Both the position numbers and the translations under genes were made by a program. Below, one piece after another: positions 30,942 through 46,937 of a DNA stretch of 64,000 bases. This DNA comes from Archangium lipolyticum (GTDB lineage: Bacteria > Myxococcota > Myxococcia > Myxococcales > Myxococcaceae), in NCBI RefSeq assembly GCF_024623785.1, contig NZ_JANKBZ010000004.1, positions 496,001 to 560,000 of the forward strand, written 5' to 3'. Each line of letters begins with the position of its first letter. Within the stretch, counting starts at the first letter, position 1. Below the pieces are notes generated by a model. The model saw nothing but the letters and a program-made list of their open reading frames with translations. It was not told the origin of the DNA and did no database searches.

Positions 30942-31610
30942 TCACACGTGCGTGGTGGAATCCCCCGAGGCGATCAATCCCTCTTCCTCTGCGAGCGAGC
31001 GCAGGTGTGTCTTGATGCGCTGGAACTGCTGCCGGAGCGCCGCCGCCTTGCGCTTGAGCGCCGCGTCCGTCAGGTCCTCCTCACCCTCGGACATCACCCG
31101 CGCCACCTCTTCCCAGGACAGCCGCTGGTCCACCCGGAGCAACAACAACATCCGTTCCTGTGGATCCAGACTCTCGCGCAGCGCGCGGAAACGTTCCTTC
31201 ACCGAGGTGCGCTGCCAGGGCCGTGTCTCCGAGCGCGGCTTCATCGCCTCGTCCGGCAGCGCCGACATGCTCACCGGCTGCTCCCTCCCCGCGGGTGCGT
31301 GCATCACCTGGTAACACGCGTTGCGCGCCAGCCGGTACGCCCACGTCCGGAAGGAGCTCTCCCAGCGAAAGCCCGACAACCCCCGCAGCAGGTTCTCGCT
31401 GAAGAGACTGAAGGCATCCCGGCTCCGCTCGTAGTCGTGCAGCACCGATGCCATCAGCCTCATTATTTCCTGCCCATATCCCTCCAGCGCCCGCTCCACG
31501 GCTCCAGCCAGCTCGCCCCGGCCGCACAGCTCACGGATCTCCTGCTCCAGCTTCTCGCGCTCTTCCAACTGCATGGTGGCTCTCCCTCGTCCTGGACCGT
31601 CGGCTTCCAT
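30942..31610 (-). CDS. Sigma-70 family (ECF-like) RNA polymerase sigma factor
   Basis: 222 residues. Region 2 is seen as DAFSLFSENLLRGLSGFRWESSFRTWAYRLARN and region 4 as LDPQERMLLLLRVDQRLSWEEVARVMS with a following helix (QQFQRIKTHLRSLAEEEGL). It directs RNA polymerase to a dedicated promoter set. The ATG at 31608-31610 has AGAGGAAG overlapping the stop of the upstream kinase gene, suggesting translational coupling; an ATG at 31574 with GGGAGAG is an alternative. Pairing with the kinase suggests that phosphorylation or binding controls it. No anti-sigma factor is adjacent. Confidence 0.85.
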   Translation of the reverse strand: MEADGPGRGRATMQLEEREKLEQEIRELCGRGELAGAVERALEGYGQEIMRLMASVLHDYERSRDAFSLFSENLLRGLSGFRWESSFRTWAYRLARNACYQVMHAPAGREQPVSMSALPDEAMKPRSETRPWQRTSVKERFRALRESLDPQERMLLLLRVDQRLSWEEVARVMSEGEEDLTDAALKRKAAALRQQFQRIKTHLRSLAEEEGLIASGDSTTHV

Positions 31611-31619
31611 GTCTTCCTC

Positions 31620-34600
31620 TCACACCGGGCGCGGAGCCTCCGCACCGGCGCCTGGCTCCCCTGGCGATGACTCCATGGCCAGCAAGGCGTGCCGCTCGTA
31701 CCCCCCGGCCCCCTGCTCGCGCGCGATGCGCACCGCCTGGAGGAAGCCCTCGCGAGCCTCCTCCTCGTGGCCCAACGCCCGCTGGGCCTCGGCGCCAATC
31801 CGGTGCAGCTCCGCCTCATAGAAGTGCTCGCCCACCGCCTCGCCCCACTTCAATCCCTCGTGCACCGAGAGCAGCGCCTCTTGGGGCTGCCCCAACCGCA
31901 GGTGCACTTCCGCCAACAGCCCGAGGTGGTGCGGCATGCCGGCCCGCAGGCCCACCATCCGCCACCTGCTCAGCCCATCACGCATCTGTTCCAGCCCCTT
32001 CTCGGCCTGCCCCAGCTCGGCGAGCGCCCAGCCTCGCAGCAGGCCCGACCACACCAGCCACAGGCGGAACCAGTGCTCGCGCGAGAGGGCATGGCACTCC
32101 TCGGCCAGCTCGAGCGTGCCCCGCGCGTCGCGGCACAGCTGGCAGGACAGGGCCGCGTACAACAACACATACGCCCGGGTGTGCACATGGCCGATGCGCC
32201 CGGCCAGCGCCACCGCCTCGACGCGGTACTGCCGCGCCTGCTCCAGCTGGCCGAGCACGGAGTGGACGACGGCGGCGTGGATCAGCGCCATGGACCTCGG
32301 GTCCACCCAGTGCCGCACGGCCAGCTCGCGGTGCTGCGCCAGGGTGAAGTCCGCGCAGGACACCGCGCGCTCCACGAACTCGCGCGCCTGGCCCATCCGG
32401 CCCCAGATGAAGAAGTCGGTGGCCATCATCCGGTAGCCCAGGGCCAGCAGCTCCTGGTTGTGCTGACGCGAGCCCAGCCCCACGAGCTGCTCGGCCAGCT
32501 CGTGCGACAGGCGGTACTCGGCCCGGGCGAAGTAGTAGGCGTAGGGCCCCCAGTAGGACAGCTCCAGGCCCGGCAGCGCCTCTCCCACCAGCCCGAAGAG
32601 CTCGCGCGCCCTCACGTACGTCTGCTTCACCTCGGGCGAGCGGTAGCCCTGTACCTGGGAGAGCGGAATGCCGAGCGCGATGAGCAGCTGCAGCTCCTGC
32701 TGGATGCGCTGTCCGGCATCGGGCAGGGAGCGCAGCAGCTTCAACGCCTGCCGCAGATGGCTCACCGCTTCCTGGTTCGCCGAGTGCAGGCTGGCGCGCA
32801 TCCCGGCCTGCATCCACGAGCGGATGGCCGGATCGTACTCGCCCGCCTCGGTGTAGTGGTGGGCCAGCAACTCCGGCTGCGTCTCCACCACCTCGGGGAA
32901 CTGCTCCACCAGCGCCTGGGCGATGCGCCGGTGGTGCTGGCGCCGGGTGTTGCGCAGCAGGGACTGGTAGGCCGCGTCCTGGAGCAGGGCGTGGCGGAAG
33001 TGGTAGCGGGGCCCCTGCCCGTCCTCCTCCTCGCGCTGGAGCAGCCCCGCGGCCACCAGCTCCTCCATGTCCTCCAACAGCGCGGAGGAGTCGCGCCGCG
33101 TCAGCGTGGCCAGCAGCGCATGGGAGAAGTCGCGCCCCACCACCGCGCACACCTGGGCCAGGGCCTTGAGCCGCTCCGGCAGCCGGTCCAGGCGCGCCAG
33201 CAGCAGCTCGTGCAGGGTGACGGGAATGGAGGACAGGGTGCCCCCCTCCAGCACCATGCGCGTCATCTCCTCCACGAAGAGGGGGATGCCATCCGTCTTG
33301 GCCACCAGTTGTTGCACCTGCTCTCCGGACAGCTCGCGGCCTCCCGCCGCCTCCTGCACCAGCGTGGCGGTGAGCCGCGCCGGCAGCCGGTCCAGGCAGA
33401 GGGTGTGGAGCCGCTCCGGGACGGGCCAGGTGTGCTGGAAGCCCGGGCGGGCACTCAGCACGAGCATCACGCGCGAGCCGCCCACCCGGCCCAGCACGTG
33501 GCCGAGCAGATCCAGCGTGGACGGGTCCGCCCAGTGCAGGTCCTCCACCACGCCGAACACCGGATGCTCCCGGGCCATGCGCAGCAACAGGACCGCCAGC
33601 GCCTCGAGGGTGCGATCCTTCTGCCGGTCCGGTGAGAGCTGGAGGACGGGCAGGTTCTCCTTCACCGGCAACGAGAGGAAGGCGGCGATGAGGGCCATGG
33701 CGTCTGGCTCCATGCCAAACGCGCCCAGGCTCGCCTCCAGCCTGGCCAGGTTGTCACGTGGCGAGCCCTCCGGCTCCAACCGGAAGAGGTGCTGCAGCAT
33801 GTCGATGATGGGGTGGAAGGCGCTGTTGCCGAACTGGCTCCAGCACTGGCAACGCAGCCGGATGCTGGTGGCGGGAGACACCCGCTGGCGCAGCTCCTGG
33901 ATGAGGCGGGACTTGCCGATACCCGCCTCGCCCTGGACGAGCACGAAGGAGCCCCTGCCCTCACGGGCCTCCTCCCAACGGCCCATGAGCATCCCCAGCT
34001 CGCGGTCGCGGCCCACCAGCGGGGAGAGCGCACCGGTGACCAGCGTCCGATCGAACCGGAACACCGCCTTGCGCGCGTGCGTCACGCGCCAGGCCTCCAT
34101 GAGACGCGCTCCGGACAGACCCTCGAAGGTGCTCGCGCCGATCGCCTCGGACTCGAAGCCGCGCTGCACCAGCGTATGCGTGGTGTGGCTGAGCACCACC
34201 GAGCCGGGCTTCGCGCGCCGCGCCAGCCAGGCGGCGATGCGCGGGGCCTCGCCCTGGATGGTCGGGGTACGCCCCCGCAGCTCCGGGAGGATGTCGTCGA
34301 ACACCACCATCTCGGTGTGGATGCCCACCTGCACCGCCAGCGAGCCGATCAACTCCAGCCCCGCGCGCACCGCGTGCTCCGAGTCCTCCTCGCGCGCCAC
34401 CGGGTAGCCGAAGCAGGCCAGCACCTCGTCTCCCAGGCAGGTGGTGATGGAGCCGCCGTGCCCCTGGATGATCTCCGAGCAGCGCTTCTGGAAGGCCGCC
34501 TCCAGCTCGCTGAAGTCCTCCGGGTCCAACCGCTCCGCGAGCCCCGTCAGGCCCACCAGCCGACACGACACCAGCGTCACCGGCCGGCGCTGGGGCACCA

Positions 34601-35597
34601 GGGACCGTGGCTCCTCACGCCAGGGCCCCAGCCGCTCCTCCAGCCGGCGCAGCCTGTCACGCAGCTCGGTGGCCGAGCGCAGACGCCTCCCCGGATCCTT
34701 CACCAGGGCCGAGGCGGTCAACGCCGCCACCTCCTCGGGCAGCTCCGGACGGCGCTCGCGCACCGAGGGCACCGGCTCGGGAGACACCACCTTCGCGCGC
34801 AGCTCCTCCAGGGTGGCGCTCGGATAGGGCAGCTCGCCGGTGAGTATCTCGTACAACATGACGCCAGCGGACCAGAGGTCCGTGCGCTCATCCTGCTTCT
34901 CGCCCGCCCACTGCTCGGGGGACATGTACGGCGGGGTGCCGGCGGAAGGCAGGTACTGCCCGGCGGCGGCGACGCCGGACGTCAGCCACGCGAGCCCGAA
35001 GTCGAGCAGCTTCACCGTGCCCTGAGTGCCCAGGTAGACGTTGCTGGGCTTGAGGTCGCGGTGGACGATGTGGCGCTCGTGCGCGTGCTCCAGCCCCGCG
35101 GCCACGGCGATCATGATGTCGAGCGCGCGCCGCACGCCGAGCCGCTTCTCCCGGTGGAGCAGCGCGGCGAGCGACTCGCCCTCCAGGCACTCCATGATGA
35201 GGAAGGGAATGCGCGGCTCCCATTGCGCACCCACCCATTCGGAGACGTCGAAGATGCGGACGATGTTCTCGTGGTCGAGCTGCGCGATGGCCCGGGCCTC
35301 CTGGCGCAGCAGGTTCATCATCCACCGCTCACCCCGGCCCTCGCGCGGGAGGAGGAACTTGAGGGCCACCACGCGTTGCAGCTCCTCGTCGCGCGCGCGG
35401 AAGACCCGGCCCATGGCCCCACCCCCCAGCTCCGCGAGGATCTCGAACCGGCGGCCATCCGAGCCCCCCAGCCTCTCCCCGCGAACCGGCTTGCGGAACG
35501 GTGGAGGCTGCTGCGCCACCTCCTTCAGGAAGGAATCGCCGAAGTCGCCATCGTCGACGTGGGACGTGTCCAGATTGTGACCGGTCTTGTCTTGCAT
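31620..35597 (-). CDS. Ser/Thr kinase-pseudocyclase-AAA ATPase-TPR protein (paralogue 1)
   Basis: 1325 residues. Kinase (51-310): GGGAMGRVF loop, ALKFL Lys, HRDLKPSN (179-186), LLDFGLAW and YMSPEQW. Class III cyclase-like domain (about 345-510): starts TLVSCRLVGLTGLAE, where the first metal Asp of the usual FADIVGFT is replaced by Arg, while the second (CLGDEVLACFG) is kept, so catalysis is unlikely. AAA/STAND ATPase: Walker [13 protein letters not shown], then [12 protein letters not shown]-like repeats fill the C-terminal 450 residues. GGGGAG precedes the ATG. Architecture recalls kinase/cyclase fusions of TOMM clusters, but no TOMM genes are here. Downstream sigma factor is coupled. Confidence 0.9.
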   Translation of the reverse strand: MQDKTGHNLDTSHVDDGDFGDSFLKEVAQQPPPFRKPVRGERLGGSDGRRFEILAELGGGAMGRVFRARDEELQRVVALKFLLPREGRGERWMMNLLRQEARAIAQLDHENIVRIFDVSEWVGAQWEPRIPFLIMECLEGESLAALLHREKRLGVRRALDIMIAVAAGLEHAHERHIVHRDLKPSNVYLGTQGTVKLLDFGLAWLTSGVAAAGQYLPSAGTPPYMSPEQWAGEKQDERTDLWSAGVMLYEILTGELPYPSATLEELRAKVVSPEPVPSVRERRPELPEEVAALTASALVKDPGRRLRSATELRDRLRRLEERLGPWREEPRSLVPQRRPVTLVSCRLVGLTGLAERLDPEDFSELEAAFQKRCSEIIQGHGGSITTCLGDEVLACFGYPVAREEDSEHAVRAGLELIGSLAVQVGIHTEMVVFDDILPELRGRTPTIQGEAPRIAAWLARRAKPGSVVLSHTTHTLVQRGFESEAIGASTFEGLSGARLMEAWRVTHARKAVFRFDRTLVTGALSPLVGRDRELGMLMGRWEEAREGRGSFVLVQGEAGIGKSRLIQELRQRVSPATSIRLRCQCWSQFGNSAFHPIIDMLQHLFRLEPEGSPRDNLARLEASLGAFGMEPDAMALIAAFLSLPVKENLPVLQLSPDRQKDRTLEALAVLLLRMAREHPVFGVVEDLHWADPSTLDLLGHVLGRVGGSRVMLVLSARPGFQHTWPVPERLHTLCLDRLPARLTATLVQEAAGGRELSGEQVQQLVAKTDGIPLFVEEMTRMVLEGGTLSSIPVTLHELLLARLDRLPERLKALAQVCAVVGRDFSHALLATLTRRDSSALLEDMEELVAAGLLQREEEDGQGPRYHFRHALLQDAAYQSLLRNTRRQHHRRIAQALVEQFPEVVETQPELLAHHYTEAGEYDPAIRSWMQAGMRASLHSANQEAVSHLRQALKLLRSLPDAGQRIQQELQLLIALGIPLSQVQGYRSPEVKQTYVRARELFGLVGEALPGLELSYWGPYAYYFARAEYRLSHELAEQLVGLGSRQHNQELLALGYRMMATDFFIWGRMGQAREFVERAVSCADFTLAQHRELAVRHWVDPRSMALIHAAVVHSVLGQLEQARQYRVEAVALAGRIGHVHTRAYVLLYAALSCQLCRDARGTLELAEECHALSREHWFRLWLVWSGLLRGWALAELGQAEKGLEQMRDGLSRWRMVGLRAGMPHHLGLLAEVHLRLGQPQEALLSVHEGLKWGEAVGEHFYEAELHRIGAEAQRALGHEEEAREGFLQAVRIAREQGAGGYERHALLAMESSPGEPGAGAEAPRPV

Positions 35598-35716: not shown

Positions 35717-37198
35717 TCACGAAGCCAGGAAGCGCAGCGCCCGGATTCCCGGCAGGAAGAAGTAGCCGCCGCCCCGCGTGTGGACGAAGCGGGGCAGCCC
35801 GGTGAGGCGCTGGCGCACCGGCTCGGCGGGAATGGTCACCGAGTAGGCATGGGGATCGCTCCCCTCCACCGCCGGATCATGATTGTCCCCGGCGATGGGA
35901 TCCCTGCTGTCGTAGTGCCCGGCGAACTTCGGATTGTTCATCCAGGTCTGCTGGACGAACTCGAACTGGCGCCGGATGTTGGCGTTGAGGGCGAGGAACA
36001 TCAGCCCCTGCTCGCCGTCCGGGTCCTTGTACGGCCGGCCGCGCCGCAGGAGCTGGTGGCGGTTGGAGATCTTCAGCGACTCCTTTGGATCTCCGGGAAT
36101 GAGCCCATCGCGCGGGTTGCTCCGGCGCACGTGCGCGTTGAGGGGGCAGCGCAGCCCCTTCGGGTCCGACGCGAAGCTGAAGTCGTTGTTGCGCGAGGGG
36201 TCCTTGCCGAGCCCCGGGTCATCCTTCGCCGGGCACAGCGAGAGCGGCGCGCCACTGCGCCACCGTCCCATCATCTTGGCCGCCAACAGCTCCTTGCGCG
36301 CCGCGTCTCCCTCGGGGTCCTCGGGGTCGTGGCTGTGCTCGGACAGGAAGCGCTCGAAGGCGTCCACGTCCTGCCGCAGCTTGCGGATGACCAGGTAGGA
36401 GCCATTGCGCCCCAGGTCCTTCGCCGTGGAGCACTTGACGTCGAGCACGGGCAGCAGCCCCTGGGGGTCCTGTTCCGCGGGCACGACGGGCGTGAAGGGC
36501 AGCTGCCCGTACTCGTTCTCGTAGCCGAGGATGAACTCCCCCGCCTTGACGGGCGCGCTCTGCCCCGGCTTCAGAGGGGCTCCCTCGAAGGTGGGCTGCG
36601 TCATGCCATCCCGGTAGCCGAACGCCTCCCGGGAACCCTCCTCGGTGCCATCGTCCCGGACCATGGGCTGCAGGTAGGCGTCCTGGATGAAGACCTCGCG
36701 CAGGCCATGCGCCTCATACCGCTGGCGATGCCGCTGGTGATAGGCGTCCATCGACCCCGACTGATCCAGGTTCCCATGGGTGAAGAGCATGAGGACGAGG
36801 TGGATGTCCTGCGCCCCTCCCTCGTCCGGCCGGCCGAACTGCCAGTTCGCCGGCGCGCTCGTGCCCGTGTCACCGAGGGCGCGGGCCCGGTACTCCTCGG
36901 CCATGCCCTTCACGAACTCGGGTAGGAAGGAGCCCACCACCTGCTCGCTCAACCCGAGCTTCCGCAGGCCGCTCGCGGAGAAGGCCACGTGCAGCGCGTG
37001 GCGCTTCTTCTCTCCCTTCGCCTTGCGCATCTCGAGCGCCTTCTGGGTGGTCACCTCCTCCGAGGCGATGTCCCTCAGCCACTTCTTCGCCCGCGCCACG
37101 TCCCCCATCTGGAGGAAGAGGTAGCGCGCGCGCCGAAGCTCCCCATAGCCCGCGAAGAGCAGCGCCTGGATGTCATGTGTTTCGAATGGTTGCTTCAT
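35717..37198 (-). CDS. DyP-type heme peroxidase
   Basis: 493 residues. Dye-decolorizing peroxidase that uses H2O2 to oxidise aromatic substrates. Motifs: the DyP GxxDG signature with catalytic Asp (FGYRDGMTQP, 194-198), the proximal heme His in NAHVRRSNPRDG (His356) and a distal-side Arg near RHQLLRRGRPY. It is longer than classical A/B types, with large inserts. No Tat or Sec signal is seen, so it is probably cytoplasmic or attached to a partner. GGAGAAC precedes the ATG at 37196-37198. It follows the duplicated membrane protein gene by 29 bases, so both are probably co-transcribed. Confidence 0.9.
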   Translation of the reverse strand: MKQPFETHDIQALLFAGYGELRRARYLFLQMGDVARAKKWLRDIASEEVTTQKALEMRKAKGEKKRHALHVAFSASGLRKLGLSEQVVGSFLPEFVKGMAEEYRARALGDTGTSAPANWQFGRPDEGGAQDIHLVLMLFTHGNLDQSGSMDAYHQRHRQRYEAHGLREVFIQDAYLQPMVRDDGTEEGSREAFGYRDGMTQPTFEGAPLKPGQSAPVKAGEFILGYENEYGQLPFTPVVPAEQDPQGLLPVLDVKCSTAKDLGRNGSYLVIRKLRQDVDAFERFLSEHSHDPEDPEGDAARKELLAAKMMGRWRSGAPLSLCPAKDDPGLGKDPSRNNDFSFASDPKGLRCPLNAHVRRSNPRDGLIPGDPKESLKISNRHQLLRRGRPYKDPDGEQGLMFLALNANIRRQFEFVQQTWMNNPKFAGHYDSRDPIAGDNHDPAVEGSDPHAYSVTIPAEPVRQRLTGLPRFVHTRGGGYFFLPGIRALRFLAS

Positions 37199-37227
37199 GT
37201 TCTCCGTCTCCCATCCACCGCGCGGCG

Positions 37228-38673
37228 CTACAGACACAGCAGCCATTGCCTCGTCCGCTCCGGGCTCATCCGCACCCGGACCCTCGAGCGGATCTCCCTG
37301 TTGTTGGCGATATTGCTGATGCTCTTGTCCGGGTGCCGGGTGAACCAGGCCTGGGTGGGCACCTGGTGCTGACGCACCCACTGCTTGAAGGCCTCCTCGC
37401 GGTCCGCGCCCAGCTCCAGGCGGAAGGGCCGCCGCAACAAGCGCGTGCGCGGGAAGCCCTCGGTGTTGCACCAGATGGTGGTGAGGCCGATGCTGGCCCG
37501 GTCCACGAAGCTGCCGAGGTAGCTCTCCCAGCTCCCGTCGTAGTTGCTGAAGAAGAGCACGCGGTACTTCGCGCGGCGCAGCAGCCGCCGCTTCCCGCCC
37601 TCCTGCCCGTCCTTGACGAGGACCCAGCGGGCGAAGTGGATGCCCTCGATGCCCCCGAGCTTGCCCTCGTCGAAGTAGTACGTCGCCAGGTAGCCCCAGT
37701 AACGGAACGCCAGCTTGATGAGCGGCAGCCGCAACAGGCCCGGTTTGAGGTCCACGACGTGGGTGAGCTGGTTCTGCGTCGCGAAGTCCTCGTGCCCGAG
37801 CAGCTCGCCCAGCCGGCTGGCGTCCTCATCGCCGTAGGCGTGCACCACCGGCTCGCGCCTGCCCGCGAACGCCCTCACCTTCTCCGTCGCCACCTCCAGG
37901 GCCTCCTGGCACAGCAGGGCCAGTCCCAGGGGAATGCCCACCGGTAGCGAGAGCCCGGCCAGGAACGTGCGCACGAACCGCGTCCGCAGCAGCCGCGTCT
38001 TCCACGGCAACGGCTCCGGGTCGAGCCGCGGCACCGGCTGGGCCCGTTCGAGGTACCGCCGGATGTCCTCCTGGAGCTCTCGCCCCTGCCTCAAACGGCC
38101 CTCCCGGGGGAGCGCGAGATACTCGTTGATGAGCTCGCGCACCCGGGCATCGTTGTCGATGCTCTCCACGGTCAGGCCCGGATAGCCCCGGTAGAAGAGC
38201 GATTCCGGCAGCGCGTGGTCGAGCAGGAAGCCCTGGAGCTCCTCGTCCGAGGCGTCCCGTGGGAGGTCGCAGTGGCAGTAGATGCGCTCCCTCAGCGTCT
38301 TCCCGGCCACCCGGATGAGGTCGTCGAGGAACTCCCCCACGGAGCCGTCGAAGTTGGCCTCGAAGGCCAGCATCCGCCGGCCGCTGCCCGGCACGATGAC
38401 CCAGCGCAGGAAGTGCGTGGCCTTCAAGGAATGAAAGGGGATGTGCGGGTTGTGCAGGGTGTCCTGGCCGATCTCCTTCAACACCGTCTCCAGCCGCCAG
38501 CACCCCTCGATGTCGGTCTGGATGGGCACGAGCACGGTCAGCGCGTTGCACCTCGCGGCCACCCGTGCCCTGGCTCGTTGCTGACGGGGTGACACCTCCG
38601 GGCGAGGCGCGAGCCCGCCGACCGACCCCTCTGCCTCTCGAATTGGAAATACCCGTGCGCTCGTATCGTCCAT
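37228..38673 (-). CDS. Membrane-anchored protein with two homologous halves, DyP partner
   Basis: 481 residues, no family name recognised. Two halves repeat the same pattern: ATHFLRWVIV (85-94) then MLAFEANFDGS (101-111) and ERIYCHCDLP (129-138); and GIHFARWVLV (344-353) then VLFFSNYDGS (372-381) and LTTIWCNTEGFP (397-408). Between them, residues about 236-258 are a hydrophobic helix (FLAGLSLPVGIPLGLALL). The repeats have the strand-helix spacing of ferredoxin-like (dimeric alpha/beta barrel) domains, the fold class DyP enzymes themselves use; this is inferred. GGGAG fixes the start at 38671-38673. It lies directly upstream of the DyP gene and after a cupin gene. Confidence 0.75.
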   Translation of the reverse strand: MDDTSARVFPIREAEGSVGGLAPRPEVSPRQQRARARVAARCNALTVLVPIQTDIEGCWRLETVLKEIGQDTLHNPHIPFHSLKATHFLRWVIVPGSGRRMLAFEANFDGSVGEFLDDLIRVAGKTLRERIYCHCDLPRDASDEELQGFLLDHALPESLFYRGYPGLTVESIDNDARVRELINEYLALPREGRLRQGRELQEDIRRYLERAQPVPRLDPEPLPWKTRLLRTRFVRTFLAGLSLPVGIPLGLALLCQEALEVATEKVRAFAGRREPVVHAYGDEDASRLGELLGHEDFATQNQLTHVVDLKPGLLRLPLIKLAFRYWGYLATYYFDEGKLGGIEGIHFARWVLVKDGQEGGKRRLLRRAKYRVLFFSNYDGSWESYLGSFVDRASIGLTTIWCNTEGFPRTRLLRRPFRLELGADREEAFKQWVRQHQVPTQAWFTRHPDKSISNIANNREIRSRVRVRMSPERTRQWLLCL

Positions 38674-38779
38674 GTGCAGTGCTCCCATGGACGTTGGAGG
38701 GCTCGACGCGCGTTCGTGACACACTTGCCGGAGGAGCTTCCCCGTCAGCCTGCTCCGCCGGACCCCAGGCGGCCAGCCG

Positions 38780-39304
38780 CTAGGGGTGGCGCCGCCGGAA
38801 CTCCTCGCTCAGCCGGGCCAGGTAGCTCGCGGCCTCCGGGGTGCCCTCCGCGGGCGCCCAGGGTGCGAAGGACTTGTCATTGGCCGGTGCGTAGGGGCCG
38901 TTCTTCACCTCGTAGATGACAGTGTCCGGAGCGAGCGCCACGAGGCCATGGAAGATGCCCGGGGCGAGGTCCACGCCGAAGTGCTCGCCACCGGCCTCCA
39001 GCGCCAGGCAGTCGCGCACGCGGCCATCCTCCTCGAAGGTGAAGAAGGCGACCGCGCCCCGCAGCACCACCCAGGCCTCCGACTTCGGCGGCTCCAGGTG
39101 CCGGTGGGGCCGCACATAGCTGTCCGGTTGGATGACGTTGAGCATCCGGTGCAGCGTCTCGGCCTCGGCCTTGTGGAAGGGCAGGATGATGCGGCGGCGG
39201 GGGCTCGTCCGGGAGACCTCGGTAGCGTGCTCGACGAGAGCGCGGGAGAGGACCACCAGCTCACCCTCGGGTGCATCCAGGGCGCGTCGGGAAGAAGGGC
39301 TCAT
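38780..39304 (-). CDS. WbuC-family cupin metalloprotein
   Basis: 174 residues. A cupin with the WbuC-type block: RPHRHLEPPKSEAWVVLRGAVAFFTFEEDGRV, giving two His and a Glu as likely metal ligands, and a later His in GIFHGLVAL. WbuC proteins are often linked to surface polysaccharide genes, but none are here; in this cluster it may act on small aromatic or sugar substrates beside the DyP peroxidase. It lies 40 bases after the kinase gene and about 106 bases before the duplicated membrane protein gene, on the same strand. No strong ribosome binding site was seen at this ATG. Confidence 0.82.
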   Translation of the reverse strand: MSPSSRRALDAPEGELVVLSRALVEHATEVSRTSPRRRIILPFHKAEAETLHRMLNVIQPDSYVRPHRHLEPPKSEAWVVLRGAVAFFTFEEDGRVRDCLALEAGGEHFGVDLAPGIFHGLVALAPDTVIYEVKNGPYAPANDKSFAPWAPAEGTPEAASYLARLSEEFRRRHP

Positions 39305-39344: not shown

Positions 39345-42300
39345 TCACGGGTGCATCGGCTCCTCGCCGCGCGAGCCCATGTCCTGAAGCTGACGGCGCA
39401 GACTCGCCTGGGCCCGCTGCTCGTAGGCGAGCATCTCGTGCTCGCGGGCGAACTGGATGGCCTGGAGGAACTCCTCGCGGGCCTCCTCCTCGCGGCCGGC
39501 CCGCCGCAGCAGCTCGCCCCGGGCGCGGTGCAGCTCGGGCAGGTAGGAGTACTCCTCCGTCACCGCCGGCCACGTCAATGCCTCGTCCACCACGGCCAGT
39601 CCCTCCTCCACCTCTCCCAACCGCAGGTGGAGGATGGCCTGCATGCCCAGGTTGTGATGCATGCCGGCGAGGAGGCCTGACTGCTTCCACTGCTCCATCA
39701 CCTCGCGCATCAGCCGCAGTCCTTCCCGTGGCTGTCCCAGCTCGCCGAGGGCCCAGGCCTTCATCGCGGAGGGCCACAGGTACCACAGCAGGAAGCGGTG
39801 CTCGCGCGCGAGCGGGATGCACTGCTCCGCCAGCGCGAGGGTCGTCCGCGCGTCCCACCGCAACTGGGCGCCGAGCGAGCAGTACGTTAGCGCGAAGGCC
39901 GTCGTATGCGGGTGGCCGATGCGCCCGCACAGCTCCAGGGCCTCCCGCGAGAAGCGCTCGGCCTCTTCCCCCCGTCCCAACACGGAGAGGATGACGGAGC
40001 CATAGGCCAGCGCCGACGCGCGCGGGTCCACCCAGTGCTGGACGGCGAGGCGCCGGTGTTGTTCGAGATCGAAGTCCGAATACGCCAACGACTGCTCCAC
40101 GTGCTTCAGCGCCCAGGTCATCTCCCCCCAGGTGAAGAGGTCCGTGGCCATCATCCGGTGCCCCATGGCGAGCAGCTCCCGGTTGCCCTGGCGCTCGCCC
40201 AGGCCCACCAGCAGCTCGCCCACCTCGTGCGCCTCCCGCGTCTTGCCTCGCGCGAAGTAGTAGGCGAAGGCGCCCCAGAAGCTCAGCTCCAGGCGGGGTA
40301 GCTCGTCGGCCACCTGCAGGACGAGCTGCCTCACCCGCGTGTACGTGCTCTCCACCTCGGAAGAGCTGAAGCCCTGCACATACATCAGCGGAATGCCCAG
40401 GGCGATGAGCAGCTGCAGCTCCTCCGCCGTGAGCGTCTCGGCATCCGGCAGGGCCCGCAGCAGCTTCAGTGCCTGGGTGAGGTGGCTCACCGCCTCCTGG
40501 TTGGCCGAGCGCAGGCTGGCGCGCACGCCGGCGAGTCTCCAGTAACGGATGGCGGGCTTCACCTCCCCGGCCTCGGTGTAGTGGTGGGCCAGCAACTCGG
40601 GCCGTGTCTCCGCCACCTCGGGGAAGTGCTCCGCCAGGGCCCGGGCGATGCGCTGGTGGTACTGCCGCCGCGCGCTGCGGGGCAGGGACTGGTAGGCCGC
40701 CTCCTGGATGAGGGCATGGCGGAACTGGTAGCCGGGCTCGGCCTCCTCGTCCCGCGACTGGAACAGCCCCGCGGACAGCAGCCCCAGGAAGTCCCTGCGC
40801 AGCGCGGCCTCGCCCAGCCCCGTGAGGATGACGAGCAACGCGTGCGAGAAGCTCCGCCCCACCACCGCGCACAGCTGCGCGAGCTGCTTCTGCCGGCGCG
40901 GCAGCGAGTCCAGCCGGGCCAGCAGCAGCTCCTGCAACGTGACGGGGATGGACGCCGCCGCCCCGCCCTCCAACATCACGCGCGTCATCTCCTCCACGAA
41001 GAGGGGGATGCCGTCCGTGCGGGCCACCAGGTGCGCCACCACCTCGTCCGGCAGGCCCTGGCCCCGCGCCACCTCTTTCACCAGCCGCTCCGTGCACGCC
41101 GCCGGCAGCCGCTCCAGGGAGATGGACTGGAAGCCGGAGCGCTGCGCCCAGGGCGGGCGGAACTCGGGCCGGGCGCTGAGGACGAAGAGCAGGCGCGTCT
41201 TCTCCACGATGCCGAGCAGGAACGTCAGCAGTTGCAGCGAGGACGGGTCCGCCCAGTGCAGGTCCTCCACCACCACCAGCACCGGGCGCTCGCCCGCGTT
41301 GCGCACCAGCAACGAGGCCAGGGCGGCCAGCGTCTCGTCCTTCTGCCGCTGCGGGGTGAGACGCTGGTGCGGCGAGTCCTCGGCCACGGGCAGTGACACC
41401 AGCGAGGCCAGCAGGCGCACCTGCACCGGCCTCAGCCCGCGCTCCTCGAGGAGCCGCTCCACCGCGTGCAGGTTCTCCTCGGGCGTGCGCTCCGGGCGAA
41501 GCCACATCCGCTGTAGCATCTCGATGACGGGGTGGAAGGCGCTGGTGCTGAACTGGCTCCAGCATTGGAGCCGCAGGTGCATGGGCTTTTCATTCAGCAC
41601 CCGCTCGCGCAGCTCCTGGATGAGACGGGACTTGCCGATGCCGGCCTCGCCACTGACGAGCACGTAGCCGCCATGTCCCTCGCGGGCCCGGCCCCAGGCC
41701 TCGAGCAACGCCTCCAGCTCACGCTCGCGGCCCACCAGCGAGCTCAGCTTCCCATCCCGCTCGAGCGTGCGCTCGAAACGGATGACGGCCGCGCGCGAGC
41801 GCAGCACGCGCTGCACCCTCAGGGTGCGCCGCCCCTCGAAGGCCCGGTCCCCGAGCGGCTCGGTGTCGAAGGCACGCTGGACCAGGCTGTGTGTATTGGG
41901 CCCGACCACCACCTCGTCCATCCCGGCCTGCCGCGCCAGCCAGGCGGCGATGCGTGGGGCCTCGCCTTGAATGGTGGGCGTGTGCCCCCGCAGCTCCGGG
42001 AGGATGTCGTCCAGCACCACCATGTCCGTGTAGATGCCCACCTGCACCGCCAGCTCCGGGTTCGTCCCCGGCGGCAGCCTGGTGCGGAGCGCCTCCTGCA
42101 CGGCCTTGGGCAGATCCAACCCCGCGAGCACCGCGCACTCCGCGTCCCCCTCCTTCGCCACCGGATAGCCGAAGCAGGCCAGCAGCTCGTCCGCCATGCA
42201 CAGGGTGACGAAGCCGCCGTGGCTCTGGATGACCTCCGAGCCAGCGCGATGGAAGGTCGCCTCCAGCTCGCCGAAGTCCTCCGGATCCAACTCCTCGGCC

Positions 42301-43379
42301 AGCGCGGTGAGCCCCGCCACCCGGCAGGAGACCAGCGTCACCTGACGGCGCTGGGGTGCCACCAGCCGCCGCGACTCGCGTCCCGGGCGCAGCAGCTCCT
42401 CCAGCTCGCGCAGCTCGTCCCTCAGCTCCGCGGCGGAGAGAAGACGCTTCTCGGGATCCTTCGCCAGCGCCACGGACAGGAGCGACTCCAGCTCCCAGGA
42501 CACCTCCGGGTTGCGCTCGCGCGGTGACGGTACCGGCTCCGGCGAGAGCGCCTTCTCACGCATCTCCTCCACCATCAGGCCCGGGTAGGGCAGCTGTCCG
42601 GTGAGCAGCTCATACAGCATGATGCCGGCCGCCCAGACGTCCGTGCGAGCGTCCACCCGCTCGCCCAGCCACTGCTCCGGGGACATATAAGGAGGCGTGC
42701 CGGCCATGGGCAGGTGCATGGCGCTGCCCGGGGTGACGAGCCACGCCAGGCCGAAGTCGAGCAGCTTCACCGTGCCCTGCCGGGTGATGAAGACGTTGTT
42801 GGGCTTGAGGTCGCGGTGGATGATGTGGTGCTCGTGAGCGTGCGCCAGCCCGGCCGCCACGTCGCGCATGATCTCCAGGGTGCGGCGTAGGGGAGGCCTC
42901 CGTTCCCGCATCAGCAGGTCCGAGAGCGACTCACCATCCAGACATTCCATGACGAGGAAGGGGACGGTGGGCTCGCCAGGTCCCCCCTTCCACTCGGACA
43001 CGTCGAAGATGCGGACGATGTTCTCGTGGTCGAGCTGCGCGATGGCCCGGGCCTCCCTCAAGCCCATGCCGGCGAGCTCCTCGCGAGGAAAAAGGAACTT
43101 GAGGGCCACCACGCGCTGCAGCTCGTCGTCGCGGGCACGGAGCACCTGGCCCATGGCGCCCTCGCCCAGCGCCTCGATGATTTCGAAGCGGCGGCCGTCC
43201 GCGCCCCCCAGCCGATCCCCGGGGAGCAGCCGGCGGAACGTCGACGCCGGGCCATAGCTGGCCACCTCCATCAGGAATGAATCGCCGAAGTCGGACGCCA
43301 CACCGTCCGCCTCGGGCTCCACTTCATCCCAATGGGGATGCGCCGACCTCTGGCCGTCCTGATCGCCGGTCTGTCCCAT
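39345..43379 (-). CDS. Ser/Thr kinase-pseudocyclase-AAA ATPase-TPR protein (paralogue 2)
   Basis: 1344 residues, alignable nearly end to end with the 31.6-kb kinase. Kinase about 65-330 ([34 protein letters not shown]). Cyclase-like domain begins [22 protein letters not shown], again with Arg at the first metal-Asp position, and keeps [13 protein letters not shown], where the Gly-Asp pair is now Ala-Asp. Walker A is [23 protein letters not shown] follows. TPR helices make up the C-terminus. GGGGGAG precedes the ATG at 43377-43379; the ORF extends 64 codons further but these are not supported. It heads the minus-strand DyP cluster and diverges from a response regulator gene. Confidence 0.9.
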
Positions 43380-43692
43380 GGCACTCCCCCCGCCCCTCCA
43401 CCAGAAGCTAGGGGTGCACGAGGAGCCGAGCAACGCATCCGTCCGACAGGGTGGGGGCAGCGTCTTATTTCGTTCGCGGCGGGCCACCTCGCGCGCTCGC
43501 GGGCGCGTCCACCAGCAAGGCGAGCGGGCCCTGGTGACGCGACCATGGCCATCTCGTGCAACGCGCACCAAATCTCACACATCACACCAGTGAGTCGTGG
43601 ACTCCACCGTAATAAGAGGCGGGGAACGGAGCTCCCAACTGGCGAGGCCCATCCCGCTTTCACACCGTCCACAGAAAGGAGCAGGTGAAGTC
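43380..43692. other. Divergent intergenic region between kinase and response regulator genes
   Basis: 313 bases holding the promoters for the minus-strand kinase/DyP cluster and the plus-strand response regulator. AT-richer patches at 43466-43475 (TCTTATTTCG) and 43555-43615 (CACCAAATCTCACACATCACAC, then GTAATAAG) are the likely promoter areas. No sigma54 element, terminator or small gene was seen. Confidence 0.45.
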
Positions 43693-44148
43693 ATGAGTAC
43701 CATTCTTCTTGTCGATGATGAGCCGGAGCTCCTCGACCTCTACACGGAAGTTCTGGAGCTGATGGACCACCGCGTCCTTCGTGCACATGATGGACGGGAG
43801 GCCCTGGAGATCGCCCACGAGCGGCGGCCGGACCTCGTGGTGACGGACTGGCAGATGCCGCGGATGAGCGGGGTCGAGCTGTGCCGGCGCCTCGTGCAGG
43901 ACGAAGAGCTGCATGACGTTCCCATCATCATGCACAGCTCGGCGACGGACCCGCATGCGCCGGGCGTCCGGGCCTTCCTCTCCAAGTGCTCGGAGCTGAC
44001 CGAGTTTGAAGAGGTGGTGAACAGGACCCTGACGGACTCGTGCGCGAGTCAGCAGGGTCCGCCCTCCCGGCACATCACCCTGGAGGACCTCTCGCGGGTG
44101 GCTCGGACGACCTGGGAGACCGATAGCGGGTGTGCGACGGTCCACTGA
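43693..44148 (+). CDS. Single-domain response regulator
   Basis: 151 residues, a receiver domain without an output domain (CheY/SpoIIR-like arrangement). Phosphorylation site and pocket are intact: acidic pair in LLVDDEPEL, phospho-Asp in LVVTDWQMP, Ser in IIMHSSATD (the Thr/Ser position) and Lys in AFLSKCSEL. The C-terminal 30 residues are extra and unstructured. AAAGGAGCAGG precedes the ATG at 43693, which overrules a longer upstream frame. The MHYT histidine kinase 0.8 kb downstream is a candidate partner. A strong terminator follows at 44165-44206. Confidence 0.9.
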   Translation: MSTILLVDDEPELLDLYTEVLELMDHRVLRAHDGREALEIAHERRPDLVVTDWQMPRMSGVELCRRLVQDEELHDVPIIMHSSATDPHAPGVRAFLSKCSELTEFEEVVNRTLTDSCASQQGPPSRHITLEDLSRVARTTWETDSGCATVH

Positions 44149-44164
44149 GGTCCCTTCATCAGAG

Positions 44165-44206
44165 AGCAAGCGGGCCGGAAGATTCATTTTCCGGCCCGCG
44201 TGCTTT
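44165..44206 (+). terminator. Rho-independent terminator after the response regulator gene
   Basis: An 11-bp perfect stem (GCGGGCCGGAA at 44170-44180 with TTCCGGCCCGC at 44189-44199), extended by AGCA/TGCT, and ending in a TTTT run. It lies 17 bases after the stop and 37 bases before the ECF sigma gene. Confidence 0.88.
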
Positions 44207-44243
44207 TCGAATCGAGCCTCCTCTACCGGTGCGGGAGGTTTTC

Positions 44244-44801
44244 ATGCAACGGACTCTCGCTGGGGATGACCAGCACTTCCAATCCCTCATCGGCCCGCAT
44301 CAGCCACTCCTGCTCGGACTCGCACGCAAGTTGTGCCGCAATGGTGGCGCCGCGGATCCGGAGGATCTCGTCCAGGACACGCTGGAGCGCGCACTGCTCC
44401 ACCTCGACCAGCTCCGCGAGTGGAGTGACAGCACGCGCCGCGCGTGGTTGTGCACCACGTTGCAGCGGAGATTCCTCGACCAATGCCGCCGCCAGCGCAC
44501 CGAGAGCACCGAGGGCCCGAACCTGGAGCGCGTGGGCGCCCCGGTGCTCGTGCGCGAGCCCCGCGCGTGGCACACCTGGGAGCAGGTCTCCGACGAGGAG
44601 CTGCGGTGGGCCATCACGCGCCTGCGCCCTCCTCTGCGCACCGCCTTCGAGCTGCACCTCGCGGGGCTGCGCTACAAGGCCATCGCCGGGCAGCTCGGCA
44701 CCTCGACGGGAACCGTGGGGTTCTGGCTGCACCAGGCGCGGCGCGAGCTGAGGGCCCTGCTGCGCCCCATCGCCACCGCGCACGCCGAATCCCCGAGCTA
44801 G
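44244..44801 (+). CDS. ECF-type sigma-70 family sigma factor
   Basis: 185 residues. Region 2 appears as GGAADPEDLVQDTLERALLHLDQLREW and region 4 as LRPPLRTAFELHLAGLRYKAIAGQLGTSTGTVGFWLHQARREL, the latter with a clear helix-turn-helix. GGGAGG precedes the ATG at 44244. No anti-sigma factor gene is adjacent, so control may come from the neighbouring two-component proteins or from its own C-terminal tail. It lies between a response regulator and an MHYT histidine kinase, separated from the first by a strong terminator. Confidence 0.88.
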   Translation: MQRTLAGDDQHFQSLIGPHQPLLLGLARKLCRNGGAADPEDLVQDTLERALLHLDQLREWSDSTRRAWLCTTLQRRFLDQCRRQRTESTEGPNLERVGAPVLVREPRAWHTWEQVSDEELRWAITRLRPPLRTAFELHLAGLRYKAIAGQLGTSTGTVGFWLHQARRELRALLRPIATAHAESPS

Positions 44802-44918
44802 GCGAGCGGCCAGCCGTGTATCGGACGGCTTGCGTTTCTGGAGCACCGTCCCAGACAGGGGGACATGGAGTAGCGGGCGTTCACGGTTTGTAGAAACACC
44901 GTGCACTTGGGTTCCGAG

Positions 44919-46937
44919 ATGGTCGCGGGAAATCTGCTCGGGTGCCTTCGGTGCGCCGGGGAGCACATCGAAGGAGCCCATCACCCGGGCCTCGTGCTGC
45001 TCTCCATCCTGATCGCCGTGGCGGCGTCCTATACGGCCCTGGACCTGGCGGGCCGGGTGGCGGGGACGTCCGGAATGGCGCGGCGGATCATCCTGGGCAG
45101 CGGCGCGGCGATGATGGGCGTGGGCATCTGGTCCATGCACTTCGTGGGAATGCTGGCCTTCCGCATGCCCATGCGGACGAGCTACGGGCCCGGGCTCACG
45201 GCGCTCTCCATGGGGGTGGCCATCCTCGGGGCCTGGGCGGCCCTGTTCGTGGTCAGCCGCAGCCTCGTCACGCCGGAGCGGCTGGTGATGGGGGGCGTCT
45301 TCATGGGGCTGGCCATCTGCGCCATGCATTACATCGGCATGGCCGCCATGCGCATGGAGGCGACGCTCCAGTACGAACCGCTGCTGTTCGTGCTCTCGGT
45401 GCTCATCGCCATCGCCGCGTCGGTGGCCGCGCTGTGGCTGGCCCTGCGGTTCCAGCGGGAGCAGCGCGCCTGGACCTGGCCGAAGCTGGTCAGCGCCCTG
45501 CTCATGGGCATGGCCATCTCCGGCATGCACTACACGGGAATGGCGGCGGCCCGCTTCACCCCCACGCCCATGCCAGCCGGGTACATCGCCAGCGGCTTCG
45601 AGATTGGCGGGCTGGGCGCGGCGGCCATCGGCGTGGCCACGCTGGGCGGACTGGCGCTCACCCTGATCGGCTCGCTGGTGAACCTCGAGCAGCGGCGAGC
45701 CCAGCGCACCTTGACGCTGCTCGCGGACACCAGCGCCCTGCTGGGACGCAGCCTGGACATCCCCACCATCGCGGAGCTGATGGCGGGCCAGGTGGCGCCG
45801 GAGGTGGGCGACGGGTGCCTGGTGGACCTGTTCGAGGAGGACGGCGTCTCGCTGCGCCGCATGGCGGTGCGCTACCCGAGTCACCGCGAGCGGGAAGAGC
45901 GCTACCGGTGCACCCGCTACGTCCTCGATGAGCACTCGGAGTCACCGCTGCAGAAGGTGCTGCGCACCGGGCAGTCCGAGCTGTTCTCGCCCCTGCCGCG
46001 CGGCGTGCTGGAGCGGCTGGCCAGCGGGCCCGAGAATCTCACGCTGCCGAGGGACGCGGGGGCGCGGGCGCTGCTCATCGTGCCGCTGATGCACCGTGAA
46101 CGGGTGCTGGGCGCCATCACCGTCTTCACACGGGAGCACCCGCTGGCGGATCCGGAGCTCGCGCTGGTGCACGAGCTGGGGCGGCGCGCGGGCAGCGCGG
46201 TGGAGAACGCCCGGCTCTACCACGAGGCGCAGGAGGCCATCCGCGTGCGCGACGAGTTCCTCTCCATCGCCTCGCACGAGCTGAACACGCCGCTCACGCC
46301 GCTGTTGATGAACCTGCAGCGGCTGCAGCGCACGGTGGCCGGTGGCGAGGGCACACAGGCGCTGTCCGACGAGCAGTTGCAGCGGATGGTGGGCGTGGCG
46401 CAGCGCCAGACGAAGCGGCTGGCGCGGCTGGTGAGTGAGCTGCTGGACATCTCGCGCATCCGCCTGGGGCGGCTGGAGCTGAGCCGGGAGGAGCTGGACC
46501 TGGGGCAGGTGGTGCGCGGCGTGGTGGAGGGGCTCGGCGAGGAGCTGGTGTGGACCGGGACGAAGCCCACGCTGCACGTGGAGGGTCCGGTGGTGGGGCA
46601 GTGGGACAGGGCCCGCCTGGAGCAGGTGGTGGGCAACCTGCTGGCCAACGCCGCGCGGTACGGACAGGGCAAGCCGGTGGACGTGACGGTGCGCGGATAC
46701 GAGGGCGAGGTCTGTCTGGTGGTGAAGGATCGGGGCATCGGCATCGCGCCCGAGGCGCGCAAGCGCATCTTCGAGCGCTTCGAGCGCGCGTCCTCGCACA
46801 ACTTCGGTGGGCTGGGGCTGGGCCTCTACATCGTGCGGCAGATCGTCGAGGCCCACGGCGGCACCATCGGGGTGGAGAGCGAGCTGGGGGTGGGCTCCAC
46901 CTTCACCGTGAAGCTTCCCCGGCGGCAGACACACTGA
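44919..46937 (+). CDS. MHYT-domain sensor histidine kinase with GAF domain
   Basis: 672 residues from the ATG at 44919 (a GTG at 44901 is also possible; neither has a strong ribosome binding site). An N-terminal seven-helix MHYT sensor shows three motif copies: SMHFVGMLAF, AMHYIGMAAM and GMHYTGMAAA, thought to bind copper and sense a diatomic gas or redox state. A GAF domain follows (about 280-430), then the H-box (SIASHELNTPLTPLL), N-box (QVVGNLLANAARYG), G1 (VKDRGIGIAPE), F-box and G2 (GGLGLGLYIVRQI). The response regulator upstream is a plausible partner. The location next to the DyP cluster suggests redox sensing, but this is inference. Confidence 0.9.
   Translation: MVAGNLLGCLRCAGEHIEGAHHPGLVLLSILIAVAASYTALDLAGRVAGTSGMARRIILGSGAAMMGVGIWSMHFVGMLAFRMPMRTSYGPGLTALSMGVAILGAWAALFVVSRSLVTPERLVMGGVFMGLAICAMHYIGMAAMRMEATLQYEPLLFVLSVLIAIAASVAALWLALRFQREQRAWTWPKLVSALLMGMAISGMHYTGMAAARFTPTPMPAGYIASGFEIGGLGAAAIGVATLGGLALTLIGSLVNLEQRRAQRTLTLLADTSALLGRSLDIPTIAELMAGQVAPEVGDGCLVDLFEEDGVSLRRMAVRYPSHREREERYRCTRYVLDEHSESPLQKVLRTGQSELFSPLPRGVLERLASGPENLTLPRDAGARALLIVPLMHRERVLGAITVFTREHPLADPELALVHELGRRAGSAVENARLYHEAQEAIRVRDEFLSIASHELNTPLTPLLMNLQRLQRTVAGGEGTQALSDEQLQRMVGVAQRQTKRLARLVSELLDISRIRLGRLELSREELDLGQVVRGVVEGLGEELVWTGTKPTLHVEGPVVGQWDRARLEQVVGNLLANAARYGQGKPVDVTVRGYEGEVCLVVKDRGIGIAPEARKRIFERFERASSHNFGGLGLGLYIVRQIVEAHGGTIGVESELGVGSTFTVKLPRRQTH

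Follow-up and report, generated by a model that had tools for sequence, protein, structure and literature searches.

Why does a gene for a DyP-type heme peroxidase stand, in Archangium lipolyticum, beside a gene for a protein that resembles no named family, with a giant kinase on either side? For most DyP peroxidases the physiological substrate is, to our knowledge, not known. The DyP systems that have been described include EfeUOB iron uptake, encapsulin cargo and life-cycle switching (PMC8197335). A preliminary description of the window (the whole stretch of 64,000 nucleotides that was analysed) proposed that a cupin, a membrane protein that we call the partner, and DyP form a three-gene unit under kinase and sigma-factor control. 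The features at issue are as follows.

30945..31610, minus strand: sigma-70 region 2-like gene, directly behind the downstream kinase (PF04542; synteny)
31620..35597, minus strand: downstream Ser/Thr kinase-AAA_16-TPR protein, 1325 aa (Pfam; kinase tree)
35717..37198, minus strand: DyP-type heme peroxidase, 493 aa (TIGR01413, DyP_N and Dyp_perox_C over cut-off; PDB 8re3)
37228..38673, minus strand: partner, tandem ferredoxin-like (ABM/SchA-like) barrel protein with a hydrophobic linker helix, 481 aa
38780..39304, minus strand: WbuC-type cupin (TIGR04366; synteny in other Archangium genomes)
39345..43571, minus strand: upstream Ser/Thr kinase-AAA_16-TPR protein, 1408 aa as the longest ORF (Pfam)
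43693..44145, plus strand: single-domain response regulator, divergent from the upstream kinase (PF00072; synteny)

The ORF calls for the 64-kb window place the cupin, partner and DyP genes on the minus strand between two giant kinase ORFs, and the family models agree with the layout given in the preliminary description. Only 29 bases separate the partner stop (37228) from the DyP ATG (37198), and an alternative in-frame ATG at 37246 would make the two genes overlap. All three ORFs show codon-position GC of the coding type; by the same measure the upstream kinase, whose longest ORF begins with TTG, more likely starts at the ATG at 43379. A scan returned neither promoter-like sites nor terminator-like sites between the genes, a result that says little for a high-GC myxobacterium. 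Divergent from the upstream kinase, positions 43693-46934 (plus strand) encode a response regulator, an ECF-type sigma factor and an MHYT-GAF histidine kinase.

Two of the three proteins belong to known families. The cupin scores 139.7 bits with the NCBIfam WbuC model TIGR04366 (cut-off 42). DyP, the only one encoded in this genome, exceeds the cut-offs of TIGR01413 (108.2 versus 100.5 bits) and of both Pfam domains (PF21105, 35.1 versus 27.5; PF20628, 32.1 versus 20), and its closest PDB chain is 8re3 (E=3e-63). The GxxDG motif with its distal Asp, the distal Arg and the proximal His are present as D197, R312 and H356, which are invariant in every aligned family member without a gap at these positions. 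In the cut-off and in these three residues the protein is like other members of the superfamily (TIGR01413; class I/P/V scheme; 8re3), and it is predicted to be catalytically complete.

The partner, in contrast, matched nothing in Pfam or NCBIfam, searched to E values up to 1, or among PDB sequences; the preliminary description had likewise placed it in no family. Its two halves are homologous: their local alignment scores 85, versus a mean of 30 (sd 4.4) and a maximum of 58 in 500 shuffles. A hydrophobic helix lies between them at residues 236-255, so the proposed arrangement of two related halves around such a helix holds. An AlphaFold2 model (pLDDT 83.4, pTM 0.84) contains two beta-alpha-beta-beta-alpha-beta halves, ferredoxin-like and forming a barrel, which are linked by a long helix at 232-269. 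In a structure-database search the best matches were ABM/SchA-like barrels, namely the tandem protein WhiE-ORFI (9lmn; VIA-align Z 14.3 over 221 residues) and the polyketide decarboxylase Abx(+)O (9ltx; Z 11.1), followed at lower scores by single-domain cyclases, cofactor-free oxygenases and IsdG-type proteins, with chlorite dismutase matching weakly. The tandem ferredoxin-like fold is thus common to the partner, WhiE-ORFI and Abx(+)O. However, sequence identity to the latter two is about 11%, the partner adds a hydrophobic linker and an obligate DyP neighbour, and no curated model in Pfam or NCBIfam assigns it to the ABM/SchA-like barrels. We conclude that it represents an unnamed family of known fold that is absent from both collections. 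In the family alignment H87 and H346, which occupy strand 2 of the first and the second half, and a DG at the third strand vary little or not at all. Moreover, one dimeric alpha/beta barrel superfamily includes both DyP and chlorite dismutase (PMC4420034). The pair therefore consists of two barrel proteins, one of them the peroxidase.

Whether the pairing matters can be judged from other genomes. A scan of contigs representing one genome per species with the partner alignment yielded 225 relatives, and 80 loci from other genomes were listed. A partner found mostly without DyP elsewhere would have spoken against the preliminary description, but DyP follows the partner directly, on the same strand, at all 80 of these loci. 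They come from Myxococcota, Bacteroidota, Alphaproteobacteria (with Mesorhizobium heavily sampled), Actinomycetota, a gammaproteobacterial MAG and a Gemmatimonas MAG, and the pairing spans at least five bacterial phyla. Independent searches of 195 Myxococcota genomes, one for each of the two proteins, placed 59 of 60 partner genes beside DyP; the remaining one lies at a contig end. Among two-half partners, 30 of 31 are less than 500 bases from DyP, the exception being cut by a contig end; all 29 one-domain partners lie within 1.3 kb of it. In the same genomes, DyP matches with no partner within 3 kb number four, two of which are fragments. One-domain partners that lack the hydrophobic linker are also found beside DyP. 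The distribution of the pair is patchy, and one genome of the same genus has neither gene. Because the neighbourhood is conserved in other genomes, the linkage is far beyond chance, and we regard the pair as obligate. A separate arrangement common across Myxococcota consists of a one-domain partner, a conserved 338-aa gene without a Pfam match, and then DyP (for example, L172 8469-10025).

Further evidence comes from gene fusions. We classed 86 loci, plasmids included, by architecture. Partner and DyP share a single ORF in 53 of them: in 45 as part of a P450-partner-DyP fusion of about 1400 aa, in five with a separate P450 gene and in three on their own. In another 11 loci P450, partner and DyP are three separate genes, two loci have a catalase-like gene and no P450, and 20 have the pair alone, such that a P450 is present in 61 of the 86. 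The order from partner to DyP is constant throughout. The 53 single-ORF fusions and the constant order are strong domain-fusion evidence that the two proteins work together. Of the 86 loci, 80 have a hydrophobic linker, which makes membrane tethering of the partner plausible. Most fused forms have two or more hydrophobic linker segments, versus one in the window partner, and two such segments would put the P450, the barrel halves and DyP on the same side of the membrane. A model of a natural partner-DyP fusion (pLDDT 72, with a weak DyP part) is too weak for any reading of an interface.

The linked P450s retain the heme-binding Cys motif, but in most of them the acid-alcohol pair of the I-helix is incomplete, one of its two members being lost; the variants include Pro-Thr in fused forms, Glu-Pro in some Bacteroidota and Gln-Pro in Skermanella. 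P450 peroxygenases lack this pair (PMC10988616), and use of peroxide is therefore plausible for many of the linked P450s. It is not expected to be uniform, since Asp/Glu-Thr is kept at 11 loci. No P450 gene lies at the window locus. Among the roughly 60 P450 genes of the genome, the closest homologue of the Archangium DyP-linked P450 (41%) is found on a contig other than that of the window, C33. There it directly follows a kinase of the window type (L181 5396-11104) and carries I-helix Asp-Asn rather than Asp-Thr. Its position behind a paralogous kinase is no more than suggestive.

The cupin behaves differently. In other Archangium genomes it is found directly behind the upstream kinase (kinase A), on the opposite strand and kilobases away from DyP, where it is convergent to a series in the order sigma, kinase B, patatin (in three species), partner, DyP, P450. 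No DyP locus examined outside the genus has the cupin. Hence the cupin goes with the upstream kinase and not with the partner-DyP pair, and we reject it as a member of the unit; chance neighbourhood is the best reading of its position. The proposed three-gene unit thus survives as a conserved and often fused pair, and at other loci the true third component is the P450 and not the cupin. The patatin-like phospholipase gene directly before the partner (for example, L020 6952-7977) was seen in three Archangium species only.

Kinase and sigma-like genes accompany the pair in relatives of the window genome. Kinases of the window type occur as 13 full-length copies in this 12.6-Mb genome, and such a kinase adjoins partner and DyP in 15 of 16 two-half Myxococcota loci, which are not independent of one another. 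In a kinase tree, the upstream kinase falls in a clade of eight, all neighbours of partner-DyP loci, and most DyP-linked kinases are in three clades that hold no other copy from the window genome. Support is full for two of these clades and weak for the third, and the DyP-linked kinases at L160 and L162 fall outside all three. The sigma-like gene (PF04542, 26.2 bits versus a cut-off of 24) lies behind a DyP-linked kinase in 13 genomes, with 64-74% identity outside the genus, and was not found behind the other kinases of this type in the window genome. Myxococcaceae relatives have a kinase of the same type next to partner and DyP, usually followed by the sigma-like gene, and several relatives have a single-domain response regulator beside the partner or the kinase. 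Conserved synteny therefore lends support to the idea of kinase and sigma-factor control, a putative regulation that is read from gene order. A defence system was considered and rejected: PADLOC gave no match for the partner, DyP or cupin, and for the kinases the best matches cover the generic kinase domain.

We propose that partner and DyP together form a membrane-associated oxidase of two components that uses peroxide to convert a lipophilic small molecule, with a P450 as a frequent third component, a reading to which we assign a probability of roughly 0.5. A complex of partner and DyP is, as a prediction from comparative sequence data, well supported. For A. lipolyticum we infer a physical complex, its membrane attachment, a substrate class, an order of reactions and a mode of regulation. 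The core would be a two-protein peroxidase consisting of DyP and its obligate barrel partner of two ferredoxin-like halves, with the hydrophobic linker probably attaching the partner to the cytoplasmic face of the membrane. The most likely role of the partner is to bind a lipophilic small molecule, or an intermediate of the reaction, and to offer it to DyP, and DyP would oxidise this ligand using either hydrogen peroxide or a hydroperoxide. The intermediate may then pass, in many bacteria, to a P450 that often lacks the acid-alcohol pair and is sometimes part of the same polypeptide; the P450 would thus be an optional second catalyst. Counting against this reading are the lack of a P450 at the window locus and the 20 of 86 loci that have the pair alone. 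In myxobacteria the likely role of the giant kinase, sigma-like protein and response regulator is to control expression or to signal the state of the pathway.

The main rivals to this oxidase are natural-product tailoring and an antioxidant role, and the fold of the partner is what makes the former attractive. If the barrel were a cyclase, decarboxylase or cofactor-free oxygenase, with DyP and the P450 as oxidative tailoring enzymes of a polyketide-like pathway, then WhiE-ORFI and Abx(+)O as best matches, TcmI and SnoaB lower in the list, and P450s as partners would all be accounted for. However, no polyketide or peptide synthase was found among the conserved neighbours examined, the unit moves with regulators across phyla, and the low identity to those polyketide proteins also counts against tailoring, which we consider rather unlikely. 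A similarly doubtful alternative is that DyP clears peroxide or lipid hydroperoxide at the membrane, the partner being a mere anchor and the kinase and sigma genes a stress response. The predicted completeness of the DyP active site, the hydrophobic linker and the kinase and sigma synteny are in keeping with such a device, but a plain anchor needs neither two conserved barrel halves with an invariant His on each strand 2 nor fusion to a P450, and some one-domain partners beside DyP lack the linker altogether.

It is still less probable that the partner is a heme-handling barrel of the IsdG/chlorite-dismutase kind that gives heme to, or takes it from, DyP and the P450. Both client enzymes contain heme, and the weaker fold matches include IsdI and chlorite dismutase, but these two reach Z scores of only about 3, other DyP and P450 enzymes do without such a helper, and no heme-binding motif was recognised in the partner. 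Chance proximity of partner and DyP, which a large genome with many kinases might produce, is refuted by the conserved linkage and the 53 fusions, and we consider it extremely improbable.

A more specific and tentative version of the oxidase, which we think improbable as it stands, is that the P450-barrel-DyP assembly uses peroxide to turn membrane-derived lipids into oxylipin-like signals, with the neighbouring kinase and sigma or cyclase-TPR proteins as regulators or readers. Three things make it attractive: P450 and catalase-like genes replace each other, some Archangium species have a patatin gene beside the partner, and fungi offer a precedent for joining peroxidase and P450. In linoleate diol synthases (Ppo) and CYP5619, both fungal, a peroxidase or dioxygenase likewise shares one chain with a P450 (PMC4420034, PMC5919972). 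However, the peroxidase domain of linoleate diol synthases is of the cyclooxygenase type, whereas the bacterial fusions described here contain DyP, from another superfamily, with the barrel domain in between, and are thus not linoleate diol synthase-like in the strict sense. A further parallel is with catalase-related allene oxide synthase and hydroperoxide lyase. In corals and plants, catalase-related and P450 enzymes perform the same chemistry (PMC5617202), and a similar swap is seen at two loci, where a catalase-like gene takes the position of the P450 (L018 7060-8217 and L055 9667-10524). Yet Thr-His, the hallmark of fatty-acid-hydroperoxide catalases according to a work cited in PMC10813956, is replaced by Ala-His in L018 and by Ser-His in L055, and this counts against the oxylipin-like pathway.

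For the DyP systems that it covers, the review cited above (PMC8197335) mentions no P450, fusion or neighbour. Our search of the open-access journal literature turned up no account of a DyP-partner or DyP-P450 fusion or of such an assembly. An obligate partner and natural P450 fusions offer a direct handle on DyP substrates, the latter as single chains suited to expression and assay. Deletion of the gene pair should expose the pathway, the partner family would gain its first functional assignment, and the myxobacterial kinase and sigma neighbours are a possible regulatory readout. If the oxylipin-like version were true, the assembly would be a convergent bacterial counterpart of the fungal peroxidase-P450 diol synthases.

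Two further observations concern the surroundings of such loci. In most Rhizobiales loci, a TPR protein with a guanylate-cyclase domain is encoded directly before the P450-partner-DyP gene (for example, L046 4644-6422). A broken partner-DyP remnant (L012 1501-2034; G001 C1, near 5266243) marks a second site in an Archangium genome, again beside a kinase.
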